From contig JAFYJN010000050.1 of assembly GCA_017538105.1 (NCBI GenBank), positions 1 through 64,000 of the forward strand: a stretch of 64,000 nucleotides of DNA. The letters are read 5' to 3'. Below are positions 30,857 to 63,946 of this stretch, piece after piece. The notes under the pieces are model-generated. The model was not told the DNA's origin and searched no databases. It was given only the letters and a program-made list of their open reading frames with translations. Each line of letters starts with the position of its first letter. The stretch's first letter is position 1. The position numbers were made by a program, and so were the translations under genes. The stretch is from Prevotella sp. (GTDB taxonomy: Bacteria > Bacteroidota > Bacteroidia > Bacteroidales > Bacteroidaceae).

Positions 30857-31071
30857 AGAAGTTAAAGGAGTTAAGGAGTTAAAGGAGTTAAGCCAAATGC
30901 CAGAGACGGAGTAATGGCTTAACTTCTGAGCGAAGCGATAACTTCTTAATTACACAAATGACGGAGTAATGGCTTAACTTCTGAGCGAAGCGATAACTTC
31001 TTAATTACACAAATGACGGAGTAATGGCTTAACTTCCGAGCGAAGCGATAACTTCTTAACTCCTTAACTAC
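30857..31071. repeat. Tandem-repeat hairpin element with 55-bp direct repeats
   Basis: A left array of GGAGTTAA-type units (about 30857-30892) is followed by a 55-base unit starting ACGGAGTAATGGCTTAAC, repeated at 30906-30960, 30961-31015 and, with changes, 31016-31060. Inverted units (AACTTCTTAACTCCTTAAC) close the right side. Each 55-base unit carries GAGCGAAGCG, a relative of the CGCTACGCTC segment in other elements. There is no ORF. Confidence 0.85.
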
Positions 31072-36658: not shown

Positions 36659-36766
36659 GGAGATTGGGAGTTTGGGAGATTAGGAGTTTGGACAATAGTC
36701 TGCTAAGCATTAACTTCAAGGCTCAAATCCCAAGACTGAAAACTCAAATCTCAAGACTCAAGCCTG
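36659..36766. repeat. Tandem-repeat hairpin element, GGAGTTTG alphabet
   Basis: GGAGATTGGGAGTTTGGGAGATTAGGAGTTT runs to the boundary GGACAATA (36690-36697). After TCTGCTAAGCATTAACTTC an inverted array of CTCAAATC and CCAAGACT units follows to 36766, eight bases before the HD gene. The two arms are complementary in type though not perfectly. Confidence 0.8.
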
Positions 36767-37448: not shown

Positions 37449-39158
37449 ATGAATAACCGACAAATCGTGGAGTGCGTGCCCAATTTCAGTGAGGGGCGCG
37501 ACATGAACATTATCCGACAGATTACCGATTGTATAGAAAGCGTCGAAGGCGTGAAGCTCCTTGATGTGGATCCCGGCGAGGCCACCAACCGTACGGTAGT
37601 CACCTTCGTGGGCGCTCCCGAGGCCGTGTGCGAAGCCGCCTTCCGCGCCGTGGGCAAGGCCGGCGAACTGATAGACATGCGCCGTCACCACGGTGCCCAC
37701 CCCCGCATGGGTGCCACCGACGTGCTGCCCCTCATCCCCGTGAGCGGCATCACCTTGGAGGAATGTGCCGCCTTGGCCCGCCAACTGGCTGAACGCATCG
37801 CCACCGAACACCGCATCCCCTGTTACTGTTACGAAGCCGCCGCCTACAGCGAGGAGCGCAAGAACCTTGCCGTATGCCGCACCGGCGAATATGAGGCACT
37901 GCGCGAGCGATTGTCCACCCCCGGTCAGATGCCCGACCACGGAGCGCGCCCCTTCGACGACGATGTGGCCCGTACGGGCTGTACCGCCGTGGGTGCACGC
38001 GACTTCCTCATCGCCGTGAACTTCAACCTGAATACCACCTCCACACGCCGCGCCAACGCCATCGCTTTCGATGTGCGCGAGAAAGGGCGGCCCAAACGCG
38101 AAGGAAACGCCATCACCGGCAAGCCACTGAAAGATGCCGAGGGTAACACCATCATGTTGCCCGGCACACTGAAGAGTACCAAGGCCATCGGATGGTACAT
38201 CGATGAATATGGTATCGCCCAGGTATCGATGAACATCACCAATATCAACGTCACACCGCTACATGTGGCCTTCGACGAGGTATGCCGCTGCGCCCAGAAC
38301 CGTGGCATCCGCGTGACGGGCACGGAGATAGTGGGACTCATCCCCAAGCGCACGCTCCTCGAGGCCGGCCGTTATTTCTTGGAGAAGCAACATCGTTCGA
38401 CGGGTATCCCCGAAGGCGACATCATCGACATCGCCATCCGCTCGATGGGACTGGCCGACCTGAAGCCTTTCAACCCCAAAGAGAAAGTCATCGAATTCAT
38501 GCTCGACGACGAGAGCAAAGACAAGCGGCTGGTTGACCTCACGGTGAAAAGGTTCGCCGAGGAGACATCACGTGAGTCACCCGCCCCCGGTGGTGGCACC
38601 ATCGCCGCCTATATGGGAGCCTTGGGTGCCGCCTTGGGCACGATGGTAGCCAACCTGTCCAGTCACAAGGCCGGCTGGGACGACCGATGGGAGGAGTTCA
38701 GCCACTGGGCCGACCAAGGACAGGCTTTGGAGGCACAGTTGCTACATCTCGTTGACGAAGACACACAGGCCTTCAACCGTATCATGACCGCCTTCGGCAT
38801 GCCCAAGGGTTCCGACGAGGAGAAGGCCGCCCGCAGCGCTGCCATCCAAGCCGCCACGCTCTATGCCGCCGAGGTTCCTCTTGAGACAATGCGCACCACC
38901 ATGGAGGTCTTTTCTCTCTGTCGCGCCATGGTCAAGGACGGCAATCCCAACAGCGTCACCGACGCCGGCGTGGGAACCTTGGCCGCCCGTGCCGCCGTGC
39001 TCGGCGCCGGCATGAATGTGATGATTAACGCCTCGTCGCTGAAGGACAAGGAGCAGGCACAAACCCTTATCAGCCAAGCCAAGGAACTGATGGAAAAAGC
39101 CAATGAAGAGGAGAAGGTGATAACATCAGCAGTCTTTGATATTATTAATAGGGAGTAA
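37449..39158 (+). CDS. ftcD: Bifunctional glutamate formimidoyltransferase / formimidoyl-THF cyclodeaminase
   Basis: FtcD moves the formimino group from N-formimino-glutamate to tetrahydrofolate, then deaminates it to methenyl-THF, the last step of histidine breakdown. The 569 residues hold both domains. The formiminotransferase part spans about 3-330, starts QIVECVPNFSEGRDMNII, and has the catalytic-region His in MRRHHGAHPRMGATDVLP (near 80-83). The cyclodeaminase helical part (about 360-569) starts FAEETSRESPAPGGGTIAAYMGALGAAL. This fused form matches the mammalian enzyme and many Bacteroidetes. The stop codon lies in the first repeat unit of the following element (AATAGGGAGTAA), so the last residues NRE come from it. 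With hutU, hutH and hutI it makes a full pathway that yields glutamate. Confidence 0.95.
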   Translation: MNNRQIVECVPNFSEGRDMNIIRQITDCIESVEGVKLLDVDPGEATNRTVVTFVGAPEAVCEAAFRAVGKAGELIDMRRHHGAHPRMGATDVLPLIPVSGITLEECAALARQLAERIATEHRIPCYCYEAAAYSEERKNLAVCRTGEYEALRERLSTPGQMPDHGARPFDDDVARTGCTAVGARDFLIAVNFNLNTTSTRRANAIAFDVREKGRPKREGNAITGKPLKDAEGNTIMLPGTLKSTKAIGWYIDEYGIAQVSMNITNINVTPLHVAFDEVCRCAQNRGIRVTGTEIVGLIPKRTLLEAGRYFLEKQHRSTGIPEGDIIDIAIRSMGLADLKPFNPKEKVIEFMLDDESKDKRLVDLTVKRFAEETSRESPAPGGGTIAAYMGALGAALGTMVANLSSHKAGWDDRWEEFSHWADQGQALEAQLLHLVDEDTQAFNRIMTAFGMPKGSDEEKAARSAAIQAATLYAAEVPLETMRTTMEVFSLCRAMVKDGNPNSVTDAGVGTLAARAAVLGAGMNVMINASSLKDKEQAQTLISQAKELMEKANEEEKVITSAVFDIINRE

Positions 39159-39296
39159 AAAAGGAAGTTAATTTGCTACGCTCATGGAAGTTAAAGTGGA
39201 AGTTAAAATGGACAATACTCCGCCTCTGACTAATGTCCAGCACGAAGTGCTTAACTTCCTTTTATAACTCCCACTTTAACTCCCATTTTAACTTTC
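39151..39296. repeat. Complete gene-less hairpin element with GGACAATA / TAATGTCC core
   Basis: Left arm: GGGAGTAAAAAAGGAAGTTAA, then TTGCTACGCTCATGG, then GAAGTTAAAGT and GGAAGTTAAAAT. Core: GGACAATA (39210-39217), loop CTCCGCCTCTGAC (39218-39230), TAATGTCC (39231-39238). Right arm: CTTAACTTCC, TTTATAACTCCCACTTTAACTCCCATTTTAAC to 39296. Core ends and arms are inverted relative to each other, so a long stem-loop can form. Confidence 0.85.
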
Positions 39297-39316
39297 ATCA
39301 TCAAATCAAAAATACT

Positions 39317-41466: not shown

Positions 41467-42957
41467 ATGATTCATAAGATCAGTGCGGGTCACCTGACCC
41501 AAGACAAGATAGACGAGATTATCACCCAAGGCTATAAATTGGAGTTGGGCGACGACTCACGCCAGCGTATCGCACATTGCCGCGAATACCTTGACCATAA
41601 GATTGCCACGTCGAAAGAGCCTATCTATGGTGTGACGACAGGCTTCGGCTCACTGTGCGACATCAGCATCGACGCTGACCAACTGGCACAGTTGCAGATC
41701 AACCTGATGATGTCACACGCCTGTGGCACTGGCGACCGTGTGCCCAACGACATCGTGAAGATTATGATTCTGCTGAAGATACAGTCGTTGAGTTATGGCT
41801 ATTCCGGCTGTCAGCTGTGCACCGTGGAGCGGCTCATCGATTTCTTCAACAACGACATCTACCCCATCGTTTATCAACAAGGCTCCGTGGGAGCCTCCGG
41901 CGACCTCGTTCCGCTCGCCCACCTCTGTCTGCCACTCGTAGGACTGGGTGAGGTGGAATACCACGGAGAACGCATGAGCGGCGGTGCCATCCTCAAGAAG
42001 ATGGGTTGGGAACCTATCCGTTTGGCCTCGAAAGAAGGACTGGCGCTGCTCAACGGCACGCAGAACATGAGTGCCCATGCCGTGTGGTCGCTCATCCAGG
42101 CCAAGCGTCTCACCGAATGGTCCGACATCATCGCCGCCATGTCGCTCGATGCCTACGACGGACGCATCGAACCGTTCAACCTTGCCGTCCATCTGGTGCG
42201 CTCACACAATGGTCAGATAGCCACGGCGGCACGTTTCAACGAGCTGTTGCGCGACAGCGAGCTGATACACCAACCGAAGGTGAACGTGCAAGACCCCTAC
42301 TCTTTCCGTTGCATCCCACAGGTGCATGGCGCGGTGAAAGACACCCTGTCGTATGTGAAATCGGTGGTCGACATCGAAATCAATGCCACGACAGACAATC
42401 CCACCGTCTGTCCCGACGAAGACCTCATCATCTCCGCCGGCAATTTCCACGGTGAGCCGATAGCCATGCCCATGGACTTCCTATGCATCGCCATGAACGA
42501 GTTGGGCAGCATCTCCGAACGTCGCCAATATAAGTTGGTGTCTGGCAACCGCGGCCTCCCCTCATTCCTCGTGGCCAAGCCCGGACTGAACAGCGGTTTC
42601 ATGATACCCCAATACACGTCGGCCTCCATCGTGAGCCAGAGCAAGACGCTCTGTATGCCATCGTCTGCCGACAGCATCCCCACCTCGCAGGGACAGGAAG
42701 ACCATGTGAGCATGGGCGCCAATGCTGGCACGAAGCTGATGCGTATCGTGCAGAACACCGAGCGCGTGTTGGCCATCGAGCTGTTCACCGCCGCCCAGGC
42801 CCTTGAGTTCCGTCGCCCACTGAAATCATCTACCGCCGTGGAGCGTCTGCATGCCGCCTACCGCAAGGTGGTGCCTTTCATCGACCACGATGAAGTGATG
42901 TATCCACATATCGCCAACACGGTGAAGTTTATGAGGAGTTTTAGGCTGGGAGGTTAG
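41467..42957 (+). CDS. hutH: Histidine ammonia-lyase
   Basis: HutH removes ammonia from histidine to give urocanate. The 496-residue protein has the self-made MIO cofactor triad Ala143-Ser144-Gly145 in GSVGASGDLVPLAHL, preceded by YGVTTGFGSLCD (the conserved Tyr-Gly-Val-x-T-G-x-Gly near 55). Other signatures are LLNGTQNMSAHAVW, FRCIPQVHGAVKD, NATTDNPTVCPDEDLIISAGNFHG and GQEDHVSMGA. The position of the triad equals that of well-studied HutH enzymes. The C-terminus is short and its last residues (RLGG) are coded by the start of a GGGAG repeat array. Its leader is also repeat. It lies between hutU and hutI in the pathway cluster. Confidence 0.95.
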   Translation: MIHKISAGHLTQDKIDEIITQGYKLELGDDSRQRIAHCREYLDHKIATSKEPIYGVTTGFGSLCDISIDADQLAQLQINLMMSHACGTGDRVPNDIVKIMILLKIQSLSYGYSGCQLCTVERLIDFFNNDIYPIVYQQGSVGASGDLVPLAHLCLPLVGLGEVEYHGERMSGGAILKKMGWEPIRLASKEGLALLNGTQNMSAHAVWSLIQAKRLTEWSDIIAAMSLDAYDGRIEPFNLAVHLVRSHNGQIATAARFNELLRDSELIHQPKVNVQDPYSFRCIPQVHGAVKDTLSYVKSVVDIEINATTDNPTVCPDEDLIISAGNFHGEPIAMPMDFLCIAMNELGSISERRQYKLVSGNRGLPSFLVAKPGLNSGFMIPQYTSASIVSQSKTLCMPSSADSIPTSQGQEDHVSMGANAGTKLMRIVQNTERVLAIELFTAAQALEFRRPLKSSTAVERLHAAYRKVVPFIDHDEVMYPHIANTVKFMRSFRLGG

Positions 42958-43019
42958 GAGATTGGGAGTATGGGAGTTTAGGAGTCTGGGAGTCTGGGAG
43001 TCTGGGAGTTTGGACAATA
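42943..43019. repeat. GGGAGTCTG tandem array with GGACAATA boundary
   Basis: Units of GGGAGTNT(G/A) run from the hutH stop to the boundary GGACAATA (43012-43019). An A/T-rich stretch with AAGCATAAAGCATAAATTTC follows directly into hutI. No clear inverted arm is seen, so this is a half element. Confidence 0.8.
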
Positions 43020-52620: not shown

Positions 52621-53377
52621 ACTGGTCAGGATTCTCCACGTAGCCCTGGAATTGTGGTTCCAGCGAGTCCATCACCGCCGAATAGCTGTCGGCCATGGTG
52701 GTGCTGACATTGTCTTCGCCCTTGGAGATGGGATAGAGGGGTTGGTGGATGGTGAGGGTCAGCGGATGCCAGTTCACAAAGTGGAAGTCGCGCGTGCGCG
52801 GCATGACATGGAACGAGCCGTTGATGGTGAGCGGCACCACCGGCAGCTGCAGCTCATCGGCCAGCAAGAACGCCCCTCTCTTGAATTTTCCCATGTGTCC
52901 AGTGAAAGTGCGCGACCCTTCGGGGAAGACCACCAGCGACACCCCTCCCTGGAGGATGTCGTGCGCCTTGTCCATCGACTCCTTGATGCGTTTGGGTCCC
53001 CTCTTGTCGACGAATATCTGTTTGCTTTTCTCACACGCCATGCCCACGAAGGGAATCTTCCTCAGCTGGTATTTCATCATCCATTTGAAGTTGCGCGGCA
53101 GGTGTCCGAAGATGAGGAAGATGTCGAACGCCCCCTGGTGGTTTGACACGAAGACATACGACTGTCCCTTCTCGAGGTTGTTTTTTCCCTCCACCTTCAC
53201 GGGCAGGAGGAGCACCTTCAGGTTGACCCATGCCCATACCTTCCCGGGATAGTAACCCCAGAAATGTCCACCACCGAGGAAACAGCCTATGGTGGTGACG
53301 AGCGCGATGAAGATGGTCCACACCAGCAATATGGGCAGGGCCACAAACAGTTGATAGATGCGATAGAGATATTTCAT
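52619..53377 (-). CDS. plsC: 1-acyl-sn-glycerol-3-phosphate acyltransferase
   Basis: PlsC adds the second fatty acid to lysophosphatidic acid at the inner membrane in phospholipid synthesis. The 252-residue protein has an N-terminal membrane helix (LFVALPILLVWTIFIALVTTIG) and the acyltransferase motifs VSNHQGAFD (H-x4-D, near 77-83), KRGPKRIKES, VVFPEGSRTF (near 140) and LPVVPLTINGS. It starts in the stop of the metallophosphoesterase gene (ATGA overlap), so the two are co-translated. Its stop codon lies at the edge of a GGAGCAAGGGGCAAG repeat. An N-acyl lipid role instead of phospholipid cannot be excluded. Confidence 0.9.
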   Translation of the reverse strand: MKYLYRIYQLFVALPILLVWTIFIALVTTIGCFLGGGHFWGYYPGKVWAWVNLKVLLLPVKVEGKNNLEKGQSYVFVSNHQGAFDIFLIFGHLPRNFKWMMKYQLRKIPFVGMACEKSKQIFVDKRGPKRIKESMDKAHDILQGGVSLVVFPEGSRTFTGHMGKFKRGAFLLADELQLPVVPLTINGSFHVMPRTRDFHFVNWHPLTLTIHQPLYPISKGEDNVSTTMADSYSAVMDSLEPQFQGYVENPDQ

Positions 53378-54564
53378 GGTTGTTGGGGTTTGTTTCCGGA
53401 ATGTAAGGTAACGAGCACCACTTCGCCCGGTATGCCGAAGCGCATGGGCAGCAGCCCGCCCAGACCGCTTGACACGAAGAGCGAGCGGTCGCCCTCGTCA
53501 TACATACCGTCGTACTCATTGTATGTCATCGCCGCCGGTGCCCATCCAAACAGGACCACCTGTCCGCCATGGGTGTGCCCAGAGAGTGTCAGCTGTGCCT
53601 TTGAACGGGGGAGAATCTCGTCATGCCATCCCCACGGGTCGTGTTGTAGCATAAGGATGAACGCCCCGTCGGGGATGCCCGCCACCGTCTTGTCGATGTC
53701 GGCACGTTTCACATTGTGTTCCTCGTCTTTCTTGCCGTGGTTCTCCATTCCCGCCACGAAGATGGAGTCGCCACCCCGGCGTATGACACGGTTCTCGTTG
53801 AGCAAGAGTGTCCATCCCAACGCCCGTTCGTCGTCCACCACCCTCCTTTCGAGCGCCACCTTTTCCGCCGAGTCGGCCTTTACATAGTCGGAATAGTCGT
53901 GGTTGCCCAAGATGGAGAACACCCCGTCGCGCGACTGCAGAGAGTTGAGCAGATGGCGGTGTGGCTCAATCTCTTCCGCCCGCATATTGATGAGGTCGCC
54001 AGCGAAGCACACCATATCGGCATCCATCGCATTGATGCTGTCGAGCGCCTGTTTCAATATCTGCTGGTCTTTACCTTGGTAGCTTCCCACATGCGCGTCG
54101 GAGAAGAGCGCGATACGGTAACCATCAAACGACCGAGGCAGCTGGGCGGAATAGAAGTCCACCTTCCTTACTCTCAGTTCGCCGAAGCCCACGAACAGAC
54201 CGTAGATGGTGGCGAAGGCCACGAACAAAGCGGCAAAGATACCCACCAGGTTCCCCCAGTTCCTTTTGGAATGAAACAGGCGCGCCACACCCCGTCCCAT
54301 GATGGAGCAGAGGGCGAAGACGGCCTTTGTGGCTACGCACACTCCTATCAGCAGGAGGAAGGCATAGAACAGGGTGCGGTCGTTGGGGATGAAGTCTTTC
54401 AACGTGGCCATCGTCACTGTGAGGGTGAGGATGAACAATCCCGGAATCCACCACGCCAGTTTTTTCCACACCGCCATTTTCCTCGGACGGATAAAATGGG
54501 CGTATATGTAGATATCCGGCAGGATGATTAGGATGAGGAACAATATGAGATGTTGTGAAACCAT
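53374..54564 (-). CDS. Membrane-anchored metallophosphoesterase
   Basis: This 396-residue protein has four N-terminal membrane helices (about 4-22, 33-52, 63-85, 103-127) and a calcineurin-like phosphoesterase domain (about 150-390). Metal ligands: LFSDAHVGSYQG, FAGDLINMRA, ILGNHDYSDY, LQHDPWG and LSGHTHGGQ. This build is like YkuE/YaeI-type enzymes, which act on phospholipid-linked or phosphodiester substrates at the membrane. The overlap with plsC suggests a lipid-related job. Upstream lies the repeat-bounded four-helix-bundle gene. Confidence 0.88.
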   Translation of the reverse strand: MVSQHLILFLILIILPDIYIYAHFIRPRKMAVWKKLAWWIPGLFILTLTVTMATLKDFIPNDRTLFYAFLLLIGVCVATKAVFALCSIMGRGVARLFHSKRNWGNLVGIFAALFVAFATIYGLFVGFGELRVRKVDFYSAQLPRSFDGYRIALFSDAHVGSYQGKDQQILKQALDSINAMDADMVCFAGDLINMRAEEIEPHRHLLNSLQSRDGVFSILGNHDYSDYVKADSAEKVALERRVVDDERALGWTLLLNENRVIRRGGDSIFVAGMENHGKKDEEHNVKRADIDKTVAGIPDGAFILMLQHDPWGWHDEILPRSKAQLTLSGHTHGGQVVLFGWAPAAMTYNEYDGMYDEGDRSLFVSSGLGGLLPMRFGIPGEVVLVTLHSGNKPQQP

Positions 54565-54722
54565 TTTTTTAAATTGGGAGTTAAAGGGGGAGTTAAAATG
54601 GAAGTTAATTCGCTACGCTCATGGGAGTTAAAGTGGACATTAGTCTTTTAATTGGGAGTTAAAGGGGGAGTTAAAATGGAAGTTAATTCGCTACGCTCAT
54701 GGGAGTTAAAAGGGACATTACC

Positions 54723-55124
54723 TTATAAATCTGTTATTCCTTTATTCTGGCTGATGGCTTCTGCGTACCCATTAAGTTTCCAACTTACTCCGCTGATAAG
54801 GAAATCAAGGCGATCGTATGTACATCGGTCGATGTAATCGATGTCTAACGAGAGGATAAGATAGTAACGACATTCCTCCAGCGACCCCTGCGCAATGTTC
54901 ATAAAACGAAGTTTATCTGCGCGGCTTAATTTACGATACCCTTCGCAGATGTTAGCAGCAATGCTCACCGCTGCACGACGGAACTGTGATGTTAGACCGT
55001 ATTGCTCGTCCACTGGAAATTGTCTGGTTATCTGATACACAGCCTTCACAAACTCATGTGCTTTCTGCCAACACTCCAAGTCAGTGAAACTGCGACTCAG
55101 TCTATTGTCCTTTTTTACTTCCAC
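54723..55124 (-). CDS. Four-helix-bundle protein (S23 / 23S rRNA intervening-sequence family)
   Basis: This 133-residue protein starts at a GTG (55124) that is part of the repeat arm; its residues 4-8 (KKDNR) are coded across the GGACAATAG boundary. The body matches the four-helix-bundle family: FTDLECWQKAHEFVKAVYQITRQFP (helix 1), LTSQFRRAAVSIAANICEGYRKLS (helix 2), FMNIAQGSLEECRYYLILS (helix 3) and a last helix near TYDRLDFLISGVSWKLNGY. These proteins are coded in 23S rRNA intervening sequences of Leptospira and others and are distant relatives of the Avd accessory protein of diversity-generating retroelements. They form basic pentamers that may hold nucleic acid. No reverse transcriptase is nearby. 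Function here is unknown; a role in the life of the surrounding repeat is my inference. Confidence 0.88.
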   Translation of the reverse strand: MEVKKDNRLSRSFTDLECWQKAHEFVKAVYQITRQFPVDEQYGLTSQFRRAAVSIAANICEGYRKLSRADKLRFMNIAQGSLEECRYYLILSLDIDYIDRCTYDRLDFLISGVSWKLNGYAEAISQNKGITDL

Positions 55125-55228
55125 TTTTACTTCCTATTTTACTTCCTATTTTACTTCCTATTTTACTTCCTATTTTACTTCCTATTTTACTTCCTATTAA
55201 CTTCCTATTAACTTCCTATTTTTATTTA
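55111..55228. repeat. TTACTTCCTATTT tandem array (left arm of the element)
   Basis: At least eight copies of a 12-13-base unit TTACTTCCTATT stand in a row on the plus strand, with two TTAACTTCCTA variants at the outer end. It includes the GTG start of the four-helix gene. Confidence 0.9.
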
Positions 55229-55230
55229 CT

Positions 55231-56046
55231 TCATTTCAGTAAAGACGCTGCGAGGAATCGTCGCATGACGGCGATGGGAATTCCACGACGTTGGGCATAG
55301 TCGGTAAGCTGGTCTTCGCCGATGGGACCGAGGTCGAAATAATGCGCCTGATGATGAGCCATCATCAGTCCCGACACCGAGGCATGAGGCCTCATGGCCC
55401 CGTTTTCCGTCAGGTGTATGCCAATCTCCTTCATTCCCAGCAGCTCACTCAGCAGGAAGTTGATGCTCGTGTCGGGCAGCGAAGGATAACCCACGGCCGG
55501 CCGTATCCCCTGGAACTCCTCGCGCAGCAGCTGATCTATGGTCAGCTGCTCGTCGGGCGCATAGCCCCACCACCGGCGGCGCACCTCCAGGTGCAACCGT
55601 TCCACGGTGGCCTCCGCCAGACGGTCGGCCAATGTTTGTGCCAGCATACGTCGGTAGTCATCGCCATCGTGCTCTTTCTCCATGGCCGCGTCGACGGTCG
55701 CCGCGAAGGCCCCCACATGGTCAGGCTTCCCCATGGTACGCGGTCGCACAAAATCGGCCAACGACAAGCATAATCCCGATGCGTCAGGCCGTTGCTGCCG
55801 CAGCATGGGCAGCCGTGTACCACCCAGCCAGATGTCATCGTCTTCCGCCCAGGCGTCGAAGAGGGCGAACACCGCATGAGTCCGGTATTGTGTCTCCCAC
55901 TGTCGCAGAAGGTCCTGCGCATCCTTGCGCAGCGCCTCGCGTGCCTCCTCCGGCTTGCCGTTCATCCCCCACGCATGGAAGAAATAGATCCAGTTGATAT
56001 ATCCGGCCACTTCCGAGAGCCGGTAGGAACACACTTTTCTCATCAT
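55231..56046 (-). CDS. Stand-alone MetH reactivation (AdoMet-binding) domain
   Basis: This 271-residue protein aligns over its whole length with the C-terminal activation domain of cobalamin-dependent methionine synthase, which binds AdoMet to re-methylate oxidised B12. Matching segments: YINWIYFFHAWGMNG, LCLSLADFVRPRTMGKPDHVGAFAATV, MLAQTLADRLAEATVERLHLEVRRRWWGYAPDEQL, then GIRPAVGYPSLPDTS (the R-P-A-x-G-Y-P AdoMet loop) and LTENGAMRPHASVSG. No cobalamin, folate or homocysteine domain is attached. It would have to work in trans with a separate, shorter MetH elsewhere. It starts in the dihydroorotase stop (four-base overlap), so the two are co-translated. Confidence 0.85.
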   Translation of the reverse strand: MMRKVCSYRLSEVAGYINWIYFFHAWGMNGKPEEAREALRKDAQDLLRQWETQYRTHAVFALFDAWAEDDDIWLGGTRLPMLRQQRPDASGLCLSLADFVRPRTMGKPDHVGAFAATVDAAMEKEHDGDDYRRMLAQTLADRLAEATVERLHLEVRRRWWGYAPDEQLTIDQLLREEFQGIRPAVGYPSLPDTSINFLLSELLGMKEIGIHLTENGAMRPHASVSGLMMAHHQAHYFDLGPIGEDQLTDYAQRRGIPIAVMRRFLAASLLK

Positions 56047-59029: not shown

Positions 59030-59037
59030 CAAAGATA
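59030..59037 (-). promoter_or_regulatory. -7 promoter box of the ftsB-like gene
   Basis: TATCTTTG followed by CACTC on the minus strand, 18 bases before ATG 59011. It covers the alternative start at 59032 and so rules it out. Confidence 0.75.
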
Positions 59038-59340
59038 AGGAAAATTATAAAATTAAAAGATAAGGAAAATTATAAAATTATAAAAATAAAAGATTAAAAG
59101 ATTATAAAAAAGGGTGACACCCACCATAACACCCACCCCATCCCTCCCAGAGGAGAATACCCACCCCGACCCTCCCAAAGGGAGGGAGAAGATTAACACA
59201 ACGAATTCCACTAATTACACGGATTCCTTATGTCTTTTCACACGAATTGCCATAAATGGCCAATAATTATCATAAATGACGGGCGTTCTCGCCCGTTAGT
59301 GGAGTATTATTGACTACAAATTACACGGATTTTCACTGTT
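59038..59340. repeat. Intergenic stretch with A/T tandem repeat, C/G palindromes and a hairpin
   Basis: Two copies of ATAAGGAAAATTATAAAATTA (from 59035) are followed by ATAAAAGATTAAAAG units to 59108. Two C/G palindrome units (about 59122-59155 and 59160-59192) follow; the first ends in GAGGAGAATA. Then comes A/T-rich sequence with ACGGGCG-ttct-CGCCCGT (59279-59296). No gene is supported. Confidence 0.65.
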
Positions 59341-63815: not shown

Positions 63816-63946
63816 TTAAAAGGTAAAAAGGTAAAAGGGTAAAGGGAGGGAAAGGAAGGTCAAGGGAGGTAGAGGGAGGGAAAGGAAGGTCAAGGGAGGT
63901 AGAGGAAGGGAAAGAAAGGTAGAGGGAGGTAAAGGAAGGTAATAGT
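63816..63946. repeat. Purine-rich tandem array (30-bp unit) with AATAG end
   Basis: GGTAAAAA units turn into GGGAGGGAAAGGAAGGTCAA with GGGAGGTAGA, a 30-base unit present twice and then in two shortened forms. The array ends in GGTAATAGT (63938-63946) right at the next ATG. Same style as the other elements, with a diverged boundary. Confidence 0.75.

Follow-up and report, generated by a model that had tools for sequence, protein, structure and literature searches.

The stretch of DNA analysed here, a 64,000-nucleotide window from the genome of a Prevotella species, carries a gene of the S23 family, a family whose members frequently have "four helix bundle protein" as their sole annotation. The gene is framed by short tandem arrays that are inverted relative to each other, and it raises the question of what such a gene, otherwise met in intervening sequences (IVSs) of 23S rRNA, is doing between protein genes. 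One described counterpart is the 23S IVS of Coxiella, in which tandem heptamers precede S23, a 28-bp stem is formed, RNase III cuts the insert in vitro, and S23 is probably not expressed (PMC4990558, in the text available to us). In 2016, when 23S rRNA IVSs had been known for more than 25 years, the same source termed their function and origin unclear, and cited older ideas that they are remnants of transposition or mobile elements with a mobility ORF. An earlier note on the window, made from the sequence alone, took the locus for the gene-carrying member of a dispersed, IVS-like family of intergenic elements.

Results

Architecture of the window element

The succession read in the earlier note (array, core end, S23 ORF, core end, inverted arrays) is present at 54568-55222 (Table 1), with the corrections that the gene is on the minus strand, that it starts within an array, and that GGACAATA is coding. 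Profile searches placed the encoded protein above the cut-offs of both family models (PF05635, 126.4 bits vs 33.8; TIGR02436, 114.8 bits vs 24) and gave 2GSC and 2RLD as solved relatives; a single-sequence structure prediction was poor (pLDDT 53) and was left unused. The GTG start codon is located within the 5' arm array, which TRF resolved at 55108-55222 into a 12-base unit with 9.8 copies and 92% matches, and which begins 8 bases past the stop codon of the upstream gene. GGACAATA extends from the end of S23 codon 5 to the first base of codon 8, TAATGTCC lies two bases past the S23 stop codon, and a further copy of GGACATTA is found at 54635 within the 3' arm. The site is between two protein genes and not in an rRNA gene. 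No match was obtained in sequence searches of the S23 protein against phages or in DNA searches of the element against plasmids.

Table 1 Features of the window element, its neighbours and the gene-less copy.
Feature	Position	Strand	Remarks
Upstream host gene, B12-dependent methionine synthase activation domain protein	55231..56046	minus	ORF and profile search
5' arm, 12-base tandem array, AATAGGAAGTAA-type	55108..55222	minus	Upstream of S23 on coding strand
5' core end GGACAATA	55103..55110	minus	Plus-strand TATTGTCC
S23 / four-helix-bundle ORF	54723..55124	minus	133 aa, GTG start, PF05635/TIGR02436
3' core end TAATGTCC	54713..54720	minus	Plus-strand GGACATTA
3' arm, inverted array, two 78-base copies	54568..54720	minus	TTTTAACTCCC / TTAACTTCC units, marker ATGAGCGTAGCGAAT
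Downstream host gene, calcineurin-like metallophosphoesterase	53374..54564	minus	ORF and profile search
Gene-less copy	39146..39300	plus	Arms as in gene-bearing copy (GGAAGTTAA-type); GGACAATA 39210-39217, 13-base loop 39218-39230, TAATGTCC 39231-39238

The gene-less copy and its local family

The gene-less copy has the same kind of arms, the core ends and the exact 13-base loop that had been reported for it, and its direction is mixed, with the core reading plus and the 3' arm marker reading minus. We folded both forms as RNA, and the hairpin supposed at the outset was strong in the gene-less copy (z −4.0, 0 of 200 shuffles as good) and weak in the whole gene-bearing element (z −1.65, 2 of 20 shuffles folding equally well), the arms of which are moderately complementary (score 15.5).

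A BLAST search with the gene-less copy returned 74 matches in its own genome (E ≤ 0.001; self and partial matches counted), and the arm marker ATGAGCGAAGCGAATTAACT, with at most two mismatches, occurred 45 times vs 0 for its reversed control, which together indicate a local repeat family that is not due to chance. The marker occurrences represent about 33 distinct places, defined by the 3' arm marker and not by the full two-arm structure; 24 were viewed and 23 counted for orientation, the count being made without nine marker places that include the window gene-less copy and the window S23 element. Among these 23, places without S23 were sense in 12 cases vs antisense in 1 (P = 0.003), and 12 vs 2 when the window gene-less copy was included by its arm marker (P = 0.013). 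A strict hairpin scan, which misses imperfect arms and was left out of the counts, found 10 hairpins in 464 kb of the genome, of which three were judged by eye to have repeat arms; a Markov control of 204 kb gave none.

The window also holds tandem arrays with other units, at 30905-31059, 36659-36691, 42946-43013, 59031-59109 and 63818-63942; two of the further arrays end in GGACAATA (36690, 43012) and are perhaps gene-less relatives. We considered a universal core motif and rejected it, since only one subfamily has the A.A or T.T mismatch of GGACAATA/TAATGTCC.

Complementary arms around S23 genes of other genomes

We then turned to a set of 60 related genomes, 48 of them with S23, from which 113 loci (part of the matches listed) provided 116 S23 genes; 4 were dropped for short flanks, leaving 112 usable. 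The complementarity score between a gene's own flanks was at least 15 for 92 of the 112, compared with 3.2% of mispaired flanks of the same set and with 2 of 325 ordinary ORFs, all of at least 100 codons and all from the Prevotella genome itself; a score of at least 18 was reached by 77 of the 112 vs none of the 325. The window S23 is absent from the own-genome ORFs reaching a score of 13. For 70 genes the own partner arm was the best of all 112, and 20 genes had no clear arms. The expectation that such arms would accompany S23 genes elsewhere thus stood for their design and failed for their exact sequence: the 92 genes have arms of the same design with other units, while GGACAATA/TAATGTCC-type core ends occur on both sides in 5 of the 112 (expectation under independence, 0.5). 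Arms with the exact GGAAGTTAA/GGACAATA sequence form a local subfamily.

Arms were periodic (P ≤ 0.01) in 79 of the 92, most often with periods of 7 (27), 8 (21) or 14 (19); 46 of the 79 have a period of 7 or 14, the window copy having a 12-base unit instead. Base composition is biased, 5' arms being poor in C (7%) and 3' arms poor in G (7%), and the unit sequences vary from locus to locus and from lineage to lineage.

A second set drew on named genomes (the best 80 of 581 candidates), of which 74 were usable after six were dropped for short flanks, among them the archaeal record L360. By their record titles these include Cyanobacteria, Acidobacteria, Planctomycetes, Nitrospira, Chloroflexota, Patescibacteria-type candidates and Rhizobiales. 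Complementary flanks were found for 54 of the 74 genes (mispaired flanks, 3.8%), and 20 were without clear arms. The plasmid set comprised 14 loci (11 cyanobacterial), of which 13 scored at least 15 and the remaining one 14.5. Between L144 and L145, copy number differs by whole units in one arm only. On cyanobacterial plasmids, S23 elements were also seen within CRISPR-Cas gene runs, between cas10 and a cmr3-type gene (L147) and between cas6 and cas4 (L151), and in L144 S23 lies two genes ahead of a TrbI/VirB10 gene.

Orientation and placement between genes

Orientation was scored at 107 of the 112 loci, those with an ORF on both sides, taking the longest ORFs and not annotated genes as the flanking genes here, for the named genomes and the marker places, and in the distances below. 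Both neighbours ran in the direction of the element at 96 loci and both opposite at 2, with 9 mixed; the element is therefore sense to both neighbours in 96 of the 98 cases between co-directional genes. The named genomes gave 47 sense, 1 antisense and 17 mixed, with one side unread in 9 of the 74. Over 88 elements, the 5' arm started a median of 1.5 nt past the upstream stop codon (quartiles −6 and 12), and the 3' arm ended a median of 12 nt ahead of the next ATG (quartiles 4 and 37). One of the few antisense cases, L152, lies between two nrd (ribonucleotide reductase) genes.

Occupied and empty sites

Empty sites in relatives, which the earlier note had proposed to look for, exist both at the window site and in the gap between frdA and frdB. 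The latter was surveyed in 59 rows, among which three genomes are double (L182/L012, L195/L001, L208/L006), one row (L009) comes from another family, and ten were known to be occupied beforehand; frdB was found in 67 of 80 genomes, 11 of which fall outside the survey, and L187 has no frdA in reach. The gap was empty (1-46 bp) in 33 rows, held an S23 element (445-586 bp) in 19, other inserts (101-222 bp) in 6, and a decayed element (230 bp) in 1. The closest pair of empty and occupied gaps, L194 and L001, share 96% flank identity. No arrays were seen in the empty frd gaps inspected, and L183 holds a small palindrome. At the window site, occupancy of which was judged by eye from the first 140 bases past the stop codon, 28 of 30 loci have both host genes without the element, the carriers being the Prevotella genome itself and G019.

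The decayed element (L260, in G099) consists of arms and a broken S23 gene, and might be a step from a gene-bearing to a gene-less form. The other inserts comprise GC-rich sequences of 101-112 bp without S23 that look like inverted repeats by eye (L188, L190), and sequences of 207-222 bp seemingly with a small ORF (L181, L184, L185).

Over all 111 loci compared, 86 sites were not linked by both flanks. Furthermore, L006 and L207 carry different elements between flanks that agree at every one of their last 36 and first 30 positions. We identified no target-site duplication at element sites. By sequence comparison, S23 hairpin units are inserts that fit as a whole between an upstream stop codon and the following gene start.

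Descent of the elements

On a tree of all S23 sequences, a quick build from few columns, sequences grouped by site: 10 sites required 11 changes, compared with 24.1 for shuffled labels (0 of 200 as low), and counted per site there was one change in six sites and two in four. For 34 of 41 sequences the nearest S23 neighbour occupied the same site. A nearest neighbour within the same genome was the case for only 8 of 118 (shuffled labels 2.9, maximum 12), and gene-bearing jumps to new sites are accordingly little seen.

At the frd site, we compared the S23 tree with a host tree of 500 bases, using clades picked after the trees were seen. None of the four host clades tested withstood the S23 data (AU p 0.0005-0.003), and the host data rejected two of four S23 clades, with p of 0.06 and 0.09 for the remaining two. 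Arm types, assigned by eye, required 4 changes on the S23 tree vs 7 on the host tree. Thus different elements were gained or replaced at this one site within very similar flanks, and arms and gene moved jointly, arm type following S23 lineage.

The protein itself is under purifying selection, and judged by its evolution the S23 gene is functional. Seven of 12 S23 pairs were unsaturated; six of them had dN/dS of 0.03-0.07 and the seventh 0.17. The window S23 gave 0.06 against L015, and the five saturated pairs had pN/pS of 0.10-0.35. The stretch from the upstream stop codon to the S23 start was well kept in one lineage (44-48 of 48 bases in three pairs with S23 dS of 1.1-2.2), and kept at 57 of 69 bases in another pair (dS 1.8); for a third lineage, which was saturated, the figure was 80 of 114. 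The 3' side of the element was more variable (42 of 123 to 32 of 37 bases kept), and different lineages at the same site were largely unlike on both sides of the element. We also counted base pairs in the arms of 98 elements and found no excess of G.U over A.C mismatches (126 vs 167), nor in any class of pairing strength, so that arm pairing is without a mark of selection at the RNA level.

Comparison with known systems

A direct link to rRNA IVSs is provided by one case, L153 from Azospirillum, in which S23 lies in an LSU rRNA gene between array arms (score 23.5); it was the only one of the sampled loci compared whose flanks matched 23S rRNA. The earlier note's placement of the window element in a dispersed, IVS-like family is borne out, and the pattern reaches beyond what the note put forward. 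The intergenic elements share with rRNA IVSs an S23 frame in the loop between complementary ends (across the class; moderately so in the window copy), sense orientation and patchy presence at conserved sites, and with the Coxiella IVS the tandem repeats before S23 (PMC4990558). They differ from rRNA IVSs in lying between protein genes, in having arms whose sequence varies by lineage, and in occupying several sites per genome, with dispersed gene-less relatives.

The comparison with REP repeats and their RAYT genes, also drawn in the earlier note, stands as far as dispersed palindromes with one gene-bearing form are concerned. Unlike RAYTs, which belong to the tyrosine transposases, S23 is a four-helix bundle, and its gene-bearing copies keep to a site. 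Because profile searches of the window S23 gave no match to transposase families at E ≤ 0.001 and so few nearest neighbours lie in the same genome, the analogy is the weaker one. STRR repeats of cyanobacteria are heptanucleotide intergenic tandem repeats, and similar heptamer-like units frame S23 on cyanobacterial plasmids. The TAACTGA heptanucleotide repeats are likewise intergenic and built of tandem units about 7 bases long, but are described, in the text available, with no linked gene (PMC4679880), whereas S23 elements combine a gene with an inverted partner array. The BrickBuilt MITE of Porphyromonas gingivalis resembles the elements in being intergenic, built of tandem units and from the Bacteroidales, and differs in its 23-base units and in ends resembling known IS elements; the terms "S23" and "four helix" are absent from the text of its description (PMC4596501).

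The Avd proteins of diversity-generating retroelements (PMC10053308, as far as accessible) are related to S23 by profile. The window S23 matched the bAvd profile with E 3.4e-5 (24.7 bits, below the cut-off of 40) and DivGenRetAVD with 35.2 bits (below the cut-off of 80); unlike Avd, it thus stays under both curated cut-offs, and its two adjacent genes are not reverse transcriptases. In Flavobacterium columnare, two "four helix bundle" genes are listed as phage elements between guanylate kinase and nicotinate mononucleotide adenylyltransferase genes (PMC5524665, Table 5), a gene order that would suit an S23 element in an operon gap. In open-access literature, partly covered, we found no description of an S23 hairpin family outside rRNA, which agrees with the earlier note.

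Discussion

We hold with high confidence that the S23 elements are, as a description, site-faithful and sense-oriented inserts of the IVS kind, and have much less confidence in the mechanism proposed for them. The window element is probably a mobile element of the 23S rRNA IVS kind residing in a protein operon, and from the comparison of sequences we read the intergenic S23 elements as what would be a large intergenic branch of rRNA intervening sequences. In the mechanism that we propose, the element would be co-transcribed with its host operon, and its arms would pair, so that the S23 frame comes to lie in the loop. The stem would be cut by a double-strand RNase (RNase III in rRNA IVSs), and the insert would split two messages while harming neither product, which would account for its tolerance at stop codons and within rRNA loops. 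S23, itself related to Avd, would be the element's own mobility factor, delivering the hairpin to the corresponding site of genomes without the element, and gene-less copies might use it in trans; the moving form could be either RNA, with a reverse transcriptase acting in trans to copy it, or DNA in the form of a hairpin.

A rival account works at the level of DNA, with template switching in imperfect palindromes and slippage of short repeats, not selection on RNA, keeping the arms complementary, operon DNA spreading the unit passively by homologous recombination, and S23 acting as a selfish passenger or a DNA-hairpin protein. The lack of a G.U excess and the whole-unit change in one arm only (L144 vs L145) agree with such a process, and recombination through the flanks would also give site faithfulness. 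A DNA process alone does not, however, predict the strong sense bias, which holds at 12 to 1 also for places without S23, and it fits poorly with the different elements of L006 and L207 (36 and 30 identical flank bases); we regard it as possible but rather unlikely.

S23 and its hairpin could instead be kept as a part of the operon that is useful to the host, for example to set the ratio of upstream to downstream product via mRNA processing; the purifying selection on S23, the well-kept 5' arm of one lineage and the frd-site clade that takes in L009, from another family of the order, speak for this. Such a host function is hard to reconcile with the patchy presence within one genus, the 86 sites not linked by both flanks, the decayed copy L260 and the antisense copy L152 between two nrd genes, and appears improbable to us. 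That common intergenic arrays flank S23 by mere chance has very little to commend it: many arrays do occur elsewhere in the window, but complementary flanks mark 92 of 112 S23 genes vs 2 of 325 ordinary ORFs (own genome only), for 70 genes none of the 112 candidate arms pairs better than the gene's own partner, and the empty frd gaps inspected hold no arrays (L183, a small palindrome).

Returning to the IVS-type mobile element, a wider reading can be put forward to which we give roughly even weight for and against: S23 elements would form one widespread mobile class, a short-repeat hairpin with one gene that is placed in sense at operon stop codons and returns to the same site across species. 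Special or gene-less variants of this class would then include the rRNA IVSs and some of the heptamer (STRR-like) repeats found in many phyla, while S23 would represent a novel mobility factor acting via the transcript. We know of no agreed role for short tandem repeats between bacterial genes, and S23 elements may link these repeats with rRNA IVSs. The S23 family appears to be part of hairpin-framed operon elements in many phyla, which would make S23, otherwise an oddity of rRNA, a testable candidate mobility factor, and the frdA/frdB gap, filled in some close relatives and vacant in others, offers a ready system for testing it.
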